Program-made: the position numbers and the translations under genes | Shown here: in pieces, positions 14,783-22,728 of the stretch | Layout: the number at the start of each line of letters is the position of its first letter | Numbering within the stretch: position 1 is the stretch's first letter | The notes under the pieces: generated by a model | The model's input: only the letters and a program-made list of their open reading frames with translations | Databases searched by the model: none | Told to the model about the DNA's origin: nothing | Assembly (NCBI RefSeq): GCF_014200605.1 | Contig: NZ_JACHCE010000002.1 | Span: forward strand, 115,300 to 179,299 | Source of the DNA: Pedobacter cryoconitis | Lineage (GTDB): Bacteria; Bacteroidota; Bacteroidia; Sphingobacteriales; Sphingobacteriaceae | Length of the DNA: 64,000 bases | Direction of reading: 5' to 3'

Positions 14783-15367
14783 CTAATAAATTACTTTACC
14801 GGCAGAAGTAACGATTGAAGCAATACGAATAGCATCAAATACACGTTCTTCAGTAGCACCTAATGCTAAAATAGACTCTTCATGTGCATTCACACACATT
14901 TCACATCCGTTAACAGCAGAAACAGCTAAACTCATTAATTCAAAAAACTCTTTACCGGTAACCGGGTTACCCATTAACTGCATGCGTACACGTGCTGGCA
15001 TTCTTGTATATTTTTCTTTAGCCGTAAAGTGACGGAAACGGTAAAGAACGTTGTTTAAAGCCAATAAAGATGCGCATCCTGCTGCCTCAGCAATTTCTTC
15101 GGCAGTAGCATCTTTTGACTGTGCATATTTCTCAAAGAAATCTGTCAATACTTTATTGTTATTGTTCACAGCGATGCTCACACCTAACAAAGCACATTCT
15201 TTCTCAGTAATATGTGCTGAAGTTAAAGTGCTGCTGAAATTTAATTTCAGGTCACGTACGTATCTTGAATTACCTTTTTCTAAAAGGTGTATGCTTTCAT
15301 TTCTGTAGCCTTCGTTTAAACCAACAATGGCTAATAATTCTTCTATGGTTTCAGTACTTTCACTCAT
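14783..15367 (-). CDS. AhpD-like carboxymuconolactone decarboxylase family protein
   Basis: A 194-residue all-helical protein with the redox motif C155-E-M-C158-V-N-A-H162 of the AhpD/CMD family. In mycobacterial AhpD this CxxC reduces the partner peroxiredoxin AhpC. The peroxiredoxin gene lies 130 nt upstream on the same strand, which fits a reductase-peroxiredoxin pair. A terminator hairpin lies between the two genes, so expression may be partly uncoupled. The length is slightly above the typical AhpD size and the motif is complete. Confidence 0.88.
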   Translation of the reverse strand: MSESTETIEELLAIVGLNEGYRNESIHLLEKGNSRYVRDLKLNFSSTLTSAHITEKECALLGVSIAVNNNNKVLTDFFEKYAQSKDATAEEIAEAAGCASLLALNNVLYRFRHFTAKEKYTRMPARVRMQLMGNPVTGKEFFELMSLAVSAVNGCEMCVNAHEESILALGATEERVFDAIRIASIVTSAGKVIY

Positions 15368-15423
15368 TTTTTTATGATTTTATGAAGCTGTCTTTCGCTT
15401 AAAAAGCAGATTCTATGGATATA

Positions 15424-15458
15424 AAAAACCCCTGCAAAATGCATTTACAGGGGTTTTT
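15424..15458 (-). terminator. Terminator or attenuator between peroxiredoxin and AhpD-like gene
   Basis: AAAAACCCCTG (15424-15434) pairs perfectly with CAGGGGTTTTT (15448-15458) around a 13-nt loop, and the hairpin ends in T5 on either strand. It follows the peroxiredoxin stop by 39 nt and precedes the AhpD-like start by 56 nt. It probably reduces read-through rather than separating unrelated units. Confidence 0.75.
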
Positions 15459-15497
15459 ATGAATTAAACCCTGTTTAAAATAAACAGGAACTTAAAT

Positions 15498-16043
15498 TTA
15501 AACTGTTAAAGTTGCTTCACCTTTTTCCCAGTTACAAGGACAAAGTTCGTCAGTTTGTAAAGCATCAAGTACTCTTAATACTTCTTTTACATTACGTCCA
15601 ACGCTTAAGTCATTTGCACTAGCCCAACGGATAATTCCTTGTGGGTCAATGATGAAAGTTGCACGGTAAGCGATTTTTTCTGTAGGCTCTAAAATGTCAA
15701 GTGCTTCAGCTAAAGATTTAGAAGTATCAGCAAGCATAGGGAATTTTAAACCACGTAAATCATCATGGTTATGTCTCCATGCTAAATGCACGTTTTCTGA
15801 ATCTGTAGATGCACCGATCAAAGTTGTGTCGCGGTCACGGAATTCACCAAAGTTTGCATTGAATTCAGCGATTTCTGTAGGACAAACAAAAGTAAAATCT
15901 TTCGGCCACCAGAACATACAAGTCCATTGGTTGTTCTCATTTACTAAAGAAGCAGAAGTTAATGTTTCAAACTCTTTTCCTTTTTCTATACTAACTACAG
16001 CTGGTTTTGAATAAGCTGGAAATTGTTCACCTATATTAATCAT
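15498..16043 (-). CDS. 2-Cys peroxiredoxin (AhpC/TSA family)
   Basis: A 181-residue peroxidase that reduces H2O2 and organic peroxides. The peroxidatic cysteine is in FTFVCPTEI (Cys54) and the C-terminal region carries C168-P-C170-N-W for resolution. I chose the ATG at 16043 (MINIGEQF). A longer frame opening with TTG at 16067 would start inside the -7 promoter box. The gene is followed by a terminator and the AhpD-like protein that probably re-reduces it. Confidence 0.9.
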   Translation of the reverse strand: MINIGEQFPAYSKPAVVSIEKGKEFETLTSASLVNENNQWTCMFWWPKDFTFVCPTEIAEFNANFGEFRDRDTTLIGASTDSENVHLAWRHNHDDLRGLKFPMLADTSKSLAEALDILEPTEKIAYRATFIIDPQGIIRWASANDLSVGRNVKEVLRVLDALQTDELCPCNWEKGEATLTV

Positions 16044-16064
16044 AATGTTGTTTTTTTCGTTGTG

Positions 16065-16095
16065 CAAAAATACATCAATACCCGCTCTTTACCAA
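16065..16095 (-). promoter_or_regulatory. Promoter of the peroxiredoxin gene
   Basis: On the minus strand TTG (16095-16093) is followed after 20 nt by TATTTTTG (16072-16065), matching the Bacteroidota form TTTG-N19-21-TAnnTTTG. Transcription would begin about 15 nt before the chosen ATG at 16043. Confidence 0.7.
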
Positions 16096-19451: not shown

Positions 19452-19465
19452 AATCTTTATATTAA

Positions 19466-19508
19466 AAAGGGGGTTATTCAAGCAATAAAATGCTTAAAAA
19501 ACCCCCTT
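19466..19508 (-). terminator. Rho-independent terminator after the YceI gene
   Basis: AAAGGGGGTT (19466-19475) pairs with AACCCCCTT (19500-19508), with an inner AAGCA/TGCTT extension. On the minus strand the hairpin is followed by TTTTTAATAT, 20 nt after the yceI-like stop. Confidence 0.8.
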
Positions 19509-19528
19509 CTCTGTTTTAAGCTATCTTA

Positions 19529-20101
19529 TTATTTAGCCTGAACGAATTCCAGGTTTAACTCAATTTTGATGTCTTTCGCAACTGCCATTCCGGTCGGATC
19601 ATATTTAATATTATAATCTAAACGGTTAACTGTGGTAGTCGCGTGAAAGCCCGCTCTTGTATTTGCCTGCTGATCTTTGGCCGTTCCGCCATAAACAACG
19701 TTGAATTTAACGTCTTTAGTTACATCACGGATCGTTAGTTTACCAGCAAGCTCATAATTATTGTCTTTCAGTTTTTTGAAAGATGAACCCACAAAAGTCA
19801 TGGAAGGATATTTCTCTGCATTAAAGAAATCATCTGTTTTCAAATGGTTATCTCTCATTTCCACACCGGTCGAGACGCTATTTACATCAACTTTAAAGCT
19901 GATTTTAGCATCTGTTAAATCTGGCTTAGCCGCATCAATCGTTCCTTCAAATTTCTTGAACGAGCCGTTGACAAAGGATATCCCTAAATGTTTAACTTCA
20001 AAATTAATGAAGGTATGCATAGGGTCTGCAGACCACTTTGTTTGTGCAAATGAAGCGGTGCTGATCGAGATGACAAGCAGGAATAAAAATATCTTTCTCA
20101 T
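19529..20101 (-). CDS. YceI family periplasmic protein
   Basis: A 190-residue protein with a signal peptide (MRKIFLFLLVISISTASFAQ) followed by a single YceI domain: WSADPMHTFINFEVKHLGIS, then VNSVSTGVEMRDNHLKTDDFF, then GKLTIRDVTKDVKF. YceI proteins are lipocalin-like barrels that bind polyprenoid or amphiphilic ligands. The ATG at 20101 opens the signal peptide; a TTG nine codons upstream is less likely. It closes the metal-related gene set and ends at the terminator at 19466-19508. Its link to copper is inferred from position only. Confidence 0.9.
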   Translation of the reverse strand: MRKIFLFLLVISISTASFAQTKWSADPMHTFINFEVKHLGISFVNGSFKKFEGTIDAAKPDLTDAKISFKVDVNSVSTGVEMRDNHLKTDDFFNAEKYPSMTFVGSSFKKLKDNNYELAGKLTIRDVTKDVKFNVVYGGTAKDQQANTRAGFHATTTVNRLDYNIKYDPTGMAVAKDIKIELNLEFVQAK

Positions 20102-20176
20102 AATTATGTGTTTTAAATAACCATACAAATCTATAGGGAATTATGGCGAAACCCCTTGATGTATGTTAAGAAAGCA

Positions 20177-20686
20177 TTAGTTCTTTTCGAGCGTATCTTT
20201 CACGGTACCACAATCATACATCTGGCTTCCGTAATAAGGGTTCTGTATTTCCTTCACCTCATTTAGCCAGCTGAATTTACCCATAGGACAATATTGAACA
20301 AAAACTTCCTGAGTATTCAGCTTTAATTCTGTTGTTAGTTTTATAAATGCGGTGCTGATCCCTTCAAAGCTTTTACGTTGACTTTTCAAATCTGTTGTTT
20401 TAGCTAACTCTACTGCTTTTTGTTGAATTACAGCAGATTCTTTCATCCATAAAACATGCTGCTGTACATTTGCAAGGCTCTTATGCGGAACCTCTTTTAC
20501 GGCTTTCTGTAACGCAAGCGCCAATTTTGGAGCTTCCTCTGCTTTATCTGTAGCCAATGCATTTTTTAAAGCATAATAGCTTTTCAAACTTTGATTAAAC
20601 TGACCAGCTACACTGGTTTTCTGCGCAAGGGCAGGTTGTAAAGATGCCACCAGAAACAGGGCCAAACCTAAAAGTACTTTTTTCAT
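20177..20686 (-). CDS. DUF3347 domain-containing periplasmic protein
   Basis: A 169-residue protein with a signal peptide (MKKVLLGLALFLVASLQPALAQ) and one DUF3347 domain. Key features are the helical first half with VQQHVLWMKES and a C-terminal signature YCPM-(x)4-W...IQNPYYGSQMYDCG with Cys133 and Cys159. Similar domains occur at the C-terminus of CusB-like copper adaptors. The conserved Cys and Met residues suggest metal contact, which is inference. It lies 31 nt after the barrel-protein gene and 75 nt before yceI. Confidence 0.85.
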   Translation of the reverse strand: MKKVLLGLALFLVASLQPALAQKTSVAGQFNQSLKSYYALKNALATDKAEEAPKLALALQKAVKEVPHKSLANVQQHVLWMKESAVIQQKAVELAKTTDLKSQRKSFEGISTAFIKLTTELKLNTQEVFVQYCPMGKFSWLNEVKEIQNPYYGSQMYDCGTVKDTLEKN

Positions 20687-20717
20687 ATGTATATTGTTTT
20701 TTGAGGGTATTTAAATC

Positions 20718-21527
20718 TTATTTTAAAACGTTAAAGAAATTAAACTCTGCACGTACCAGGTACATGTTTTTATTATATCTGCCAGCCATATCGCCCGCTA
20801 CCTGGAACCTGTAGCCCAGATCAATTCTCGTTCTGCTATTCAGGATCACCTGTAAGGCGGGTGCAAGATCAAGATATGACCTGCCATTTGCCGGGTTTGT
20901 TTTACCCAGCATCTCGAAATAGACATTGAAATTTGGCTGATTATAGTTTTTATAAACGAATGGAAGAACCAGGTATCCCGACGATAAACTGTAACCAATC
21001 ATTTGATCGGGCTGCAAGGTACCCGCTACCCGCTGGCTTTCTACATCAAAAGCCTTTGTGTAACTTATCGTACCGGATAAAGCCAGTTTATGCAGTAATT
21101 GCGTGACGACCAAACCTCCCTGAATACCACTATTGTCACCCTCCAGATTAATATCCTCTGTATAGGTAGGGCGTTTACTCGTACTAACTCTGCCAAATAC
21201 AGCAGCCCGTAAATGCTTTTGTGAGTCATCTATAGAAAGAAAGCGGTATTTCGCATATACGCTTCCCCCTTCCAATCTGTATTTACCATCCATATCAGAG
21301 AAAAATCCCTGAAAATGTGTCATCAGGTTTTTATTGAAGCTAAACATCACTTCGGGCATAGTCCTGTTCCCTCCGCCATTAAAAATACCTTCATTGGTAA
21401 TTCTGACACCAATTGATTTGGCAGCCATATTACTTGCCGGCTCCGTAAAGACATATAATTCCTGTGCCCCTGCACGCAAGCTCCCGCCCAGCAGGAAAAT
21501 TACTGCTGCTAATTGAATATACTTCAT
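20718..21527 (-). CDS. Predicted outer-membrane beta-barrel protein
   Basis: A 269-residue protein with a signal peptide (cleavage near SLRAGAQ) and alternating amphipathic strands ending in a barrel-like C-terminus (YLVRAEFNFFNVLK, last strand aromatic-rich). I do not recognise a named family with confidence. It lies between an HMA protein (8 nt) and a DUF3347 protein (31 nt), so it may be an outer-membrane component of the same metal-handling set. The strands MPEVMFSFNKNLMTHFQGFF include methionines, which is suggestive but not diagnostic. Confidence 0.7.
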   Translation of the reverse strand: MKYIQLAAVIFLLGGSLRAGAQELYVFTEPASNMAAKSIGVRITNEGIFNGGGNRTMPEVMFSFNKNLMTHFQGFFSDMDGKYRLEGGSVYAKYRFLSIDDSQKHLRAAVFGRVSTSKRPTYTEDINLEGDNSGIQGGLVVTQLLHKLALSGTISYTKAFDVESQRVAGTLQPDQMIGYSLSSGYLVLPFVYKNYNQPNFNVYFEMLGKTNPANGRSYLDLAPALQVILNSRTRIDLGYRFQVAGDMAGRYNKNMYLVRAEFNFFNVLK

Positions 21528-21535
21528 TCCGGGAT

Positions 21536-22072
21536 TTAAATACTTAAGTGAAAAATACGCGTTTCTTTACCTTCTACAAGCCCTTTTCCTTTAAGGTAGG
21601 TGTCAGATTTTAACTCTGCAGCTTTCTTTTTAAAGGCCGAAGAGGTGATAAAATCTTTATCCATTATCCTGGCAATAACAGGTCCGTCAAGGGTCTTGCT
21701 TTTTGCATTGATGAATTGAAAAACGCTACCGTCAAGCTGTGCAAGACCAGCATCATCAACCGCTGTATTTTTGAAATTGATAGTTGCAGAAAGGTCACCT
21801 ATTGAAAAACCTGCATCCTGAACTTTATCTCTGATCTGATCCAGATCTACTTTCTGACCTGACTTAAAAGTAAGGACGAAAACGTTTCTGTTCAGGTCAG
21901 GGGTTACATCTTCAATAAAACCAAGACTTTTTAAAGAGGTTTCAGTTGCTCTTGAACACATAGAACAAGTCAAACCATTAACCTGTAACTCAGCTTTAGA
22001 AATTTGCTGTGCGAAAGTACTTCCGCCAATAAACATGAATAAAATTATAATGAAATATCTGATCGTTTTCAT
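21536..22072 (-). CDS. Exported heavy-metal-associated (HMA) domain protein
   Basis: A 178-residue protein with a signal peptide (MKTIRYFIIILFMFIGGSTFAQ) and an HMA ferredoxin-like domain at about 25-90. The metal motif is GLTC36-S-M-C39, the form typical of Cu(I)/Zn/Cd-binding chaperones and ATPase domains. The C-terminal half (about 95-178) is not a recognised domain. The ATG at 22072 opens the signal peptide; an ATG 15 codons upstream gives no sensible leader. An exported HMA domain is unusual because most are cytosolic; it could capture periplasmic copper. Confidence 0.82.
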   Translation of the reverse strand: MKTIRYFIIILFMFIGGSTFAQQISKAELQVNGLTCSMCSRATETSLKSLGFIEDVTPDLNRNVFVLTFKSGQKVDLDQIRDKVQDAGFSIGDLSATINFKNTAVDDAGLAQLDGSVFQFINAKSKTLDGPVIARIMDKDFITSSAFKKKAAELKSDTYLKGKGLVEGKETRIFHLSI

Positions 22073-22146
22073 AATTGAAATTTTACATAAGACCCTGTTT
22101 TTAAAACAGTTCCTCATAGATTAAAAAAATAAATTAATAAAAAAAT

Positions 22147-22172
22147 CAATTACGGATGCTCATCCGCAATTG
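22147..22172 (-). terminator. Hairpin between the HYC_CC_PP-like gene and the HMA gene
   Basis: CAATTACGGATG pairs with CATCCGCAATTG with one mismatch and a 2-nt loop. On the minus strand it is followed by TTTTTTTATT. It lies 20 nt after the stop of the gene ending at 22193 and before the HMA gene, so it acts either as a terminator or as an attenuator within the cluster. Confidence 0.65.
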
Positions 22173-22192
22173 CTGTTAAATTTATTCCTGAT

Positions 22193-22594
22193 CTAATTTC
22201 TGAAAACGCAGTTATAAGCATGCAAGGCAAGCCGGGCGGACAAAGGGGGTACTTTACTTTCCACTTTGCTAAATATTTTCGGCAAAGCAGACTCCACCAT
22301 TCTTAAAAAGAAGGAAGAAAGAAAAACAGGAAGGCTGTAGTTTTTAGGAATATCAATTTTCAGACCTGTCTGGTGACTGTCTTTGATTTTAGCATCAACC
22401 TTAGTGTTTTTGCAGCATGAATCATCTGCTTTAACTGGTTTTTCTGCCTCCTTACATCCGCCGCAATGGGCAACTTCCGTCAAATGAATACCAGACAGCT
22501 GACCTCCGCAAAAATGCAGACTCAAGGCAACACCTATTACGCTAATCAGGTAAAAGGCACACAATCCTAAAGCTATCTTTTGTCTTAGTTTCAT
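22193..22594 (-). CDS. Small Cys/His-rich membrane-anchored protein, HYC_CC_PP-like
   Basis: A 133-residue protein with an N-terminal hydrophobic helix (about 7-26) leading into H27-F-C29-G-G, then H43-C44-G-G-C47, then C60-C61, and later P116-P117. This His-x-Cys, Cys-Cys, Pro-Pro order matches the Bacteroidota family catalogued as HYC_CC_PP, whose function is not established. The density of His and Cys next to an HMA and a DUF3347 protein suggests metal binding outside the cytoplasm. It is the first gene of the minus-strand cluster. Confidence 0.72.
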   Translation of the reverse strand: MKLRQKIALGLCAFYLISVIGVALSLHFCGGQLSGIHLTEVAHCGGCKEAEKPVKADDSCCKNTKVDAKIKDSHQTGLKIDIPKNYSLPVFLSSFFLRMVESALPKIFSKVESKVPPLSARLALHAYNCVFRN

Positions 22595-22728
22595 TATTTA
22601 CCAAAAGTAAGCATAAAATTCTAAAATAATAAAAGGCCGGGTTTAAGAAACGGAAAGATTACAAGATTATGCCATACCAATTTTTAAAAGCAGAATTCTG
22701 TCTTAACTTAGCCAAAAATACCAATAAG

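Follow-up and report, generated by a model that had tools for sequence, protein, structure and literature searches.

The DNA considered here is a stretch of 64,000 nucleotides from Pedobacter cryoconitis (assembly GCF_014200605.1, contig NZ_JACHCE010000002.1, positions 115,300 to 179,299), hereafter called the window, and the subject of the analysis is a cluster of five minus-strand genes between its positions 19,529 and 22,594. In the direction of transcription, the genes encode a protein of the HYC_CC_PP family (HYC), an exported two-domain HMA protein, an outer-membrane β-barrel, an exported DUF3347 protein and an exported YceI-domain protein. The HMA gene and the barrel gene are a strict conserved pair, and this pairing is the strongest result of the analysis. 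With regard to function, the cluster is read, at a probability just short of even, as an envelope copper-handling operon in which Cu(I) is captured in the periplasm and, through a link with the barrel, detoxified or buffered. It is a conserved envelope module of Bacteroidota, probably for copper; the version found here is reduced, and its outer-membrane partner is undescribed. A preliminary description, made from the sequence alone, had named the five genes on one strand, and both the open reading frames (ORFs) and the family matches (Pfam, NCBIfam) agreed with it.

The distribution of the genes was followed in 151 genomes of the order, including the window's own genome (6.2 Mb), in 296 genomes sampled from the whole phylum and searched with the barrel alignment, and in a scan of named genomes, in which 225 relatives of the barrel were confirmed and the best 80 of the 225 were kept as loci. 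By their titles the named loci are from Bacteroidota (Flavobacterium, Chryseobacterium, Chitinophagaceae, Taibaiella, Thermonema, Pedobacter and metagenome-assembled genomes), and they overlap in part with the genomes of the order set. The Pedobacter-type synteny is shared by 18 of the 80 loci; the other 62, with a total of 0.90 Mb, are referred to as outside loci. Additionally, 17 loci of the genus were read at length for gene content. The families in the outside loci were counted with profiles built in this analysis, and the metal genes were then rechecked against curated Pfam and NCBIfam models.

The barrel was present in 89 of the 151 genomes of the order and in 18 of the 296 phylum-wide genomes, and the window HMA query matched 93 of the 151 genomes of the order at E ≤ 1e-15. 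In all 89 barrel genomes of the order the HMA gene was located upstream of the barrel gene on the same contig and strand with a gap of at most 792 bp; four genomes carried the HMA gene only and 58 neither gene. HMA upstream of and on the same strand as the barrel was likewise found in 74 of the 80 named loci, and in L053 the contig start cuts the locus and the tail of the HMA gene is visible. HYC, HMA and barrel were contiguous in 17 of the 17 genus loci, which additionally contained the DUF3347 gene in 15, a regulator gene in 12 and the YceI gene in 11 cases. Chance clustering of HMA and barrel was rejected on the basis of the 89 of 89 genomes and the 74 of 80 loci. The preliminary description had tied the exported HMA protein to an outer-membrane barrel and had named conservation of the gene neighbourhood as a check, and the genes do co-occur at all three levels of comparison. 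In four loci (L077, L081, L091 and L099) a divergent gene upstream of the pair or of the barrel encodes a DUF6370 protein (one member was checked), and L081, L091 and L099 have no HMA gene.

The HMA gene spans positions 21,536 to 22,117, with a likely start at the ATG at 22,072 (MKTIRYF...). Its product has a signal-peptide-like N-terminus ending with A before Q, as have the barrel, the DUF3347 protein and the YceI protein (all judged by eye), and HYC has a single hydrophobic segment at its N-terminus. The match to PF00403 (29.1 bits, cut-off 24.8) covers residues 44 to 104, the motif GLTCSMC lies in the N-terminal copper-chaperone fold, and both cysteines of the CxxC are present in 51 of 51 aligned members. 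In searches with the predicted structure (pLDDT 91.0) by Foldseek and VIA, residues ~24 to 98 matched the HMA domains of Ccc2a, CopA, CopZ, HMA7, Atx1, MerP and ZntA. Ccc2a, CopA and CopZ were the best Foldseek matches with Atx1 and MerP lower in the list, the VIA Z-scores reached up to 8.1, which is middling according to the note of the tool, and most of the nearest structures were copper proteins. All structural matches listed fall on the N-terminal domain; roughly 80 further residues form a C-terminal domain. The protein scored below every CopZ and MerP cut-off shown in NCBIfam. Judged from the fold and the motif, the exported HMA protein would bind periplasmic Cu(I) via its CxxC. That HMA domains are normally cytosolic, as had been pointed out in the preliminary description, is no more than a rule of thumb: the HMA protein MerP is exported, and the PDB title of its structure calls it periplasmic.

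The barrel gene is located at positions 20,718 to 21,527, and its product had been called an unrecognised outer-membrane barrel. This was confirmed in both respects, as the protein gave no Pfam match at E 1 and no NCBIfam match, and its predicted structure (pLDDT 91.2) is a barrel of 12 strands. A comparison of 61 members with Pfam at E 0.1 yielded weak and mixed outer-membrane matches to six families, among which Phenol_MetA_deg was reached weakly by a single member (E 0.0042). A profile search of PDB sequences with the barrel alignment returned no barrel and chance matches to RadA only. The nearest folds according to VIA were those of FapF (Z 21.4), the COG4313 channel 4rl8 (20.4), KdgM (19.6) and NanC (18.2).

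Methionine and histidine appear to line the pore of the barrel. Positions 57, 61, 69, 71 and 105 most often hold Met or His, with H105 in 61, M69 in 51, M61 in 43, H71 in 36 and M57 in 34 of the 61 barrels. Lumen parity was found for six of the seven Met/His-rich strand columns, as deduced from residue alternation and not from coordinates; the sixth of these is position 55, which is Arg in the window, and the seventh column, 108, is membrane-facing. The columns sit in strands 2, 3 and 5, which have a clear hydrophobic alternation; strands 4, 6 and 8 show it weakly. If the barrel termini are periplasmic, as is usual, M61, M69, H71 and H105 would lie near the periplasmic mouth. The Met content of the family is 3.6% versus 1.1% in two presumed outer-membrane families of the same loci and 2.3% over all ORFs. 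Two distant barrels (L037, L039) have a His-rich insertion (HHG and THTHT in L037) in a would-be extracellular loop, and this insertion is missing in Pedobacter. In one genus member (L036 of genome G026) the barrel gene seems to be interrupted, with split matches. Moreover, a presumed outer-membrane protein with 8.0% Met (four members) is encoded beside MbnP-like genes in L041, L042, L045 and L050, and a small CxGKC protein is found near it; this Met-rich protein is possibly a second copper barrel family.

Copper is the likeliest and best-supported metal because the pair keeps copper-specific company, namely multicopper oxidases in 11 and copper-type ATPases in five of the 62 outside loci. Ten of the multicopper oxidases were scanned and all ten scored over the Pfam Cu-oxidase cut-offs (L074 was left out); the one of L066 has an unusual domain order. 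The copper-type ATPases (TIGR01511 over cut-off) are encoded in L053, L056, L058, L074 and L113, all of which are multicopper-oxidase loci. A CusA/CzcA pump was present in 13 of the 62 outside loci, nine scoring over the TIGR00914 cut-off and four being split or cut pieces at 552-622; contig-end CusA-type pieces in L055 and L057 were not confirmed by TIGR00914. For CusA/CzcA only, a background was determined with TIGR00914 at E ≤ 1e-50 in 61 phylum genomes (~209 Mb), which gave at least 382 pieces, AcrB-like pumps included; about 1.6 would be expected in 0.90 Mb versus the 13 confirmed loci, a roughly eight-fold enrichment. At least one of pump, oxidase and copper ATPase occurred in 22 of the 62 outside loci, which fits the earlier proposal of a conserved envelope metal cluster with copper as the probable metal. 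The preliminary description had further stated that no pump is included. None is encoded inside the cluster, but this is a feature of the lineage, as relatives place CusA/CzcA or a multicopper oxidase beside the pair.

Further families recurring in the outside loci were a small second exported HMA-like family (36 of 62, counting 11 fused to DUF3347) and a TlpA-like thioredoxin (21 of 62, own profile). MbnP-like genes were found in five of the 80 named loci, all of them outside loci, and TonB receptors in three of the 80 with three query receptors as well as, by eye, in the distant loci L038 and L039. A TonB-dependent uptake system was considered and rejected, given receptors in just three of 80 loci. 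An HMA-MauE membrane protein as the missing importer was also considered and dropped, with no match in the own genome, an empty answer that carries little weight.

The gene of HYC (133 aa, NF047658, 44.7 bits versus 28; motifs HFC, CxxC, CC and PP) is located at positions 22,193 to 22,594, and HYC accompanies the HMA-barrel pair in all 17 genus loci, in 51 of the 80 named loci and in 33 of the 62 outside loci. The DUF3347 protein (20,177 to 20,686; PF11827, 63.5 bits versus 25.5) also has a partial match to NF047615 with 44.3 bits versus a cut-off of 100. Its two cysteines, in [YH]CPM (YCPM in the window) and CG, are kept in 15 of 15 aligned genus relatives, and the claim of two conserved Cys is thereby upheld. 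Twelve of the 62 outside loci have DUF3347 domains, and in 11 of the 12 an HMA-like domain is fused to it; in four proteins DUF3347 is fused to a CPMH (HMBD-like) motif. The own genome has three further DUF3347 places, two together upstream of a multicopper oxidase, in the company of a small His/Cys-rich protein, and a third without an obvious copper neighbour. A second copper-looking operon, on contig C5 of the own genome (L129:5633-9987), encodes a His/Cys-rich HYC-like protein, two DUF3347 proteins and a multicopper oxidase, and additionally a small protein that carries a haem-like CxxCH motif. For the function of DUF3347, for HYC_CC_PP and for the HMA-barrel pair no description was found in full-text searches, most subscription journals being outside their coverage. 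The earlier statement that several members are without an assigned function is supported.

A regulator of the AraC type with a CxxC motif adjoins the DUF3347 gene in 12 of the 17 genus loci, and the regulator is present in 11 of the 62 outside loci. Its AraC helix-turn-helix is recognised by Pfam; the CxxC half is not and looks HMA-like by eye. The window cluster has no such regulator, and the same five genes without it are present in the near relatives L002, L003 and L005. In the own genome, a paralogue of the regulator (49-51% identical) directly follows a copper ATPase (TIGR01511, 600 versus 397) and a 70-aa HMA protein (L123:6631-9679, contig C1). Copper is also favoured because of this position behind a copper ATPase and because of the two DUF3347 genes upstream of a multicopper oxidase. 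Another long paralogue of the regulator (L124:9317-9937) reads MVSNRC and has lost one motif Cys.

The YceI gene (19,529 to 20,128; PF04264, 159.4 bits versus 23.7) is the final gene ahead of a probable terminator. With the window YceI as query at E 1e-5 it was found in 15 of the 18 Pedobacter-type loci versus 0 of the 62 outside loci, and for this reason it is probably a lineage-specific passenger. The gene is thus present in the cluster as had been described, but its working membership is weak and was rejected. In a further near relative (L004 of genome G006) YceI seems to be broken, with split matches.

The mechanism that is proposed on this basis starts with the exported HMA protein, which would carry Cu(I) in the periplasm via its CxxC. 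Cu(I) may then be exchanged between this chaperone and the barrel, whose Met/His column would be oriented toward the periplasmic side, with DUF3347 and HYC as putative further Cys/Met copper binders of the periplasm. The small AraC-type regulator with its N-terminal CxxC would control expression in the majority of genus relatives. The net effect would be that excess copper is captured and then removed or buffered, which shields the periplasm, and the cluster would complement the copper ATPase, the CusA-type pumps and the multicopper oxidase which are encoded elsewhere in the own genome. A more specific version, in which HMA protein and barrel are a dedicated outer-membrane Cu(I) conduit with the chaperone docking at the periplasmic mouth and handing Cu(I) to a Met/His ladder in the barrel, is doubtful. 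If it were true, copper would pass through the outer membrane with neither a TolC duct nor energy from TonB, and Bacteroidota would have a class of metal channels with its own chaperone. If the barrel ends a chaperone-fed copper route, this would be a first function for the barrel family, with at least 225 relatives, as well as for DUF3347 and HYC_CC_PP. The proposal gathers envelope genes of unknown role under a single copper hypothesis that is testable and names residues.

Several observations weigh against the copper-handling reading. The loci and genomes are related by descent and the counts are not independent, and the Fisher value calculated for the pairing in the 151 genomes therefore overstates their independence. 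The pairing has exceptions in both directions, with a barrel lacking HMA upstream in five of the 80 loci (L050, L051, L081, L091 and L099) and HMA without barrel in the four genomes of the order mentioned above. The placement of Met and His in the lumen is modelled from residue alternation instead of coordinates, and of the 11 HMA-like/DUF3347 fusions one scored over the Pfam HMA cut-off, eight below it and two without a match. The multicopper oxidases of L057 and of the own genome scored below TIGR01480 copper_res_A (400 and 371 versus 478.95), the ATPase of L054 is a calcium-type pump, and 16 of the 62 outside loci contain none of the scored metal-associated families. ATPases of the Zn/Cd type (TIGR01512 best, below the copper cut-off) were found in five of the 62 loci (L043, L052, L055, L057 and L113), CusA/CzcA pumps carry several metals, and the MbnP-like genes in five loci could mean acquisition. 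L113 encodes both a copper-type and a Zn/Cd-type ATPase, and the Zn/Cd-type ATPases near the pair hint at multi-metal islands in some relatives.

The rival explanations differ in the direction of transport, in the role of the barrel and in the metal. Copper import, with the barrel admitting copper and the HMA protein receiving it for copper enzymes or for a periplasmic defence in the manner of PcoB, has a limited but substantial chance. According to an excerpt of PMC9210255, PcoB, which likewise has 12 strands and whose operon includes a multicopper oxidase and proteins that bind copper, permits copper import, which is proposed there as part of a defence with copper accumulating in the periplasm. 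Because of the PcoB case, as far as this excerpt goes, the direction is not guessable from gene company alone and import is kept as a serious rival, to which the MbnP-like genes in five and the TonB receptors near three of the 80 loci are added. Against import, genes for efflux or detoxification are the commoner recurring neighbours outside the genus (22 of 62), and the sequence of the barrel does not place it in the CopB family. It is unlikely that HYC, HMA and DUF3347 are a periplasmic copper sponge or sensor and the barrel a co-transcribed general channel or surface structure. The fold is common to the functionally unrelated FapF, COG4313, KdgM and NanC proteins and five loci have the barrel without HMA, but the pairing in 89 of 89 genomes is very strict for a bystander and Met/His of lumen parity is over-represented in the barrel family.

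That the device serves a soft metal other than copper (silver, mercury, zinc or cadmium), or more than one metal, is quite improbable. The structural matches include the HMA domains of MerP and ZntA, and the pumps of the CusA/CzcA type are multi-metal; owing to the Zn/Cd-type ATPases in five loci this rival was weighed slightly higher and the copper reading slightly lower. The multicopper oxidases and copper-type ATPases near the pair speak against it, as does the predominance of copper proteins among the nearest HMA structures. Least credible by far is an envelope thiol-redox module in which HMA and TlpA-like proteins manage disulfides and metal is incidental. A ResA/TlpA-like thioredoxin is encoded in 18 of the 80 loci by clustering and in 23 by a looser profile, in some cases between HMA and barrel; however, the window cluster has no thioredoxin, and a thioredoxin could equally hold the HMA cysteines reduced for copper.

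The cluster is followed by a probable intrinsic terminator behind YceI (19,464 to 19,511, minus strand), which has a GGGGG/CCCCC stem and a 3′ arm ending in UUUUU. With -29.3 kcal/mol (z -6.9) it was matched in stability by none of 200 shuffles; it was missed by the simple terminator scan, and part of its U run is base-paired within the predicted stem. A terminator-like hairpin between HYC and HMA (22,147 to 22,172, minus strand) consists of an 11-pair stem followed by ATTTTTTTAT. With six sites in the terminator scan versus a shuffle mean of 3.0 this hairpin is weak by itself, but on account of it HYC is perhaps partly a separate transcript, and HYC may be partly uncoupled from HMA-barrel transcription. 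TAnnTTTG is the -7 consensus of Bacteroidota promoters, and a possible -7 box, TACTTTTG, is located at 22,602 to 22,609 (minus strand), 15 nt ahead of the HYC start. The consensus starts 12-15 nt ahead of HYC in 31 of 35 genus-type loci and TACCTTTG is found at the promoter position in 20 of the 35, some of which are the same genome twice. Matches to sigma-70-type promoters were at chance level (10 seen versus 9.6 expected). The palindrome CTGTTTTTAAAACAG at 22,095-22,109 ahead of HMA was considered as a shared regulator site and rejected, since it was not seen by eye in the gaps of the relatives. A DOPA dioxygenase gene was likewise rejected as a working member, as its family occurs in 17 Pedobacter-type loci only and the gene lies beyond the hairpin behind YceI. 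At 14,783-16,067 of the window, on the same strand, peroxiredoxin (AhpC/TSA) and carboxymuconolactone-decarboxylase-type genes form an ordinary-looking peroxide-defence pair.

Compared with known systems, the cluster shares with CusCFBA a small periplasmic protein of the Cu(I) type and an outer-membrane route, and CusA/CzcA adjoins the pair in 13 of the 62 outside relatives. Unlike CusCFBA, it has a predicted single-chain barrel of 12 strands and no CusC/TolC duct, and neither an RND pump nor an adaptor is found among the five window genes, which sets it apart from Cus-type tripartite systems. With MerP and CopZ the window protein has the HMA fold and the CxxC in common; it differs from both in its extra C-terminal domain and its recurring outer-membrane partner. 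The COG4313 channel, FapF and KdgM/NanC share the fold of the window barrel at 8-11% identity and have unrelated known roles, and the shared barrel fold shows no function. By its DUF3347 domain, which scored over the Pfam cut-off, the window protein can be likened to the LIC13259-LIC11441 family; LIC13259 binds plasminogen, vitronectin and complement according to NCBIfam, whereas for the window protein metal binding is suggested by the context and the fusions. The family CopB, which we take to be the Pfam name for PcoB/CopB, was absent from the Pfam matches of the window barrel (E 1) and of the 61 members (E 0.1), and the PcoB structure 7PGE was not among the 50 VIA matches listed for the barrel. 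In contrast to Pco, the partner of the window barrel is an HMA protein and not PcoC, and the window cluster has no oxidase. Like the Pco/Cop systems (PcoA/PcoC/PcoE), relatives of the window pair do include a multicopper oxidase (11 of 62), and the cluster resembles them in combining a barrel of 12 strands, the count given for PcoB in the excerpt of PMC9210255, with periplasmic metal-binding partners. The best reading by analogy is that the cluster would be a functional analogue of PcoB/PcoC and not a member by sequence, and, if so, it would represent the Bacteroidota counterpart of PcoB/CopB.

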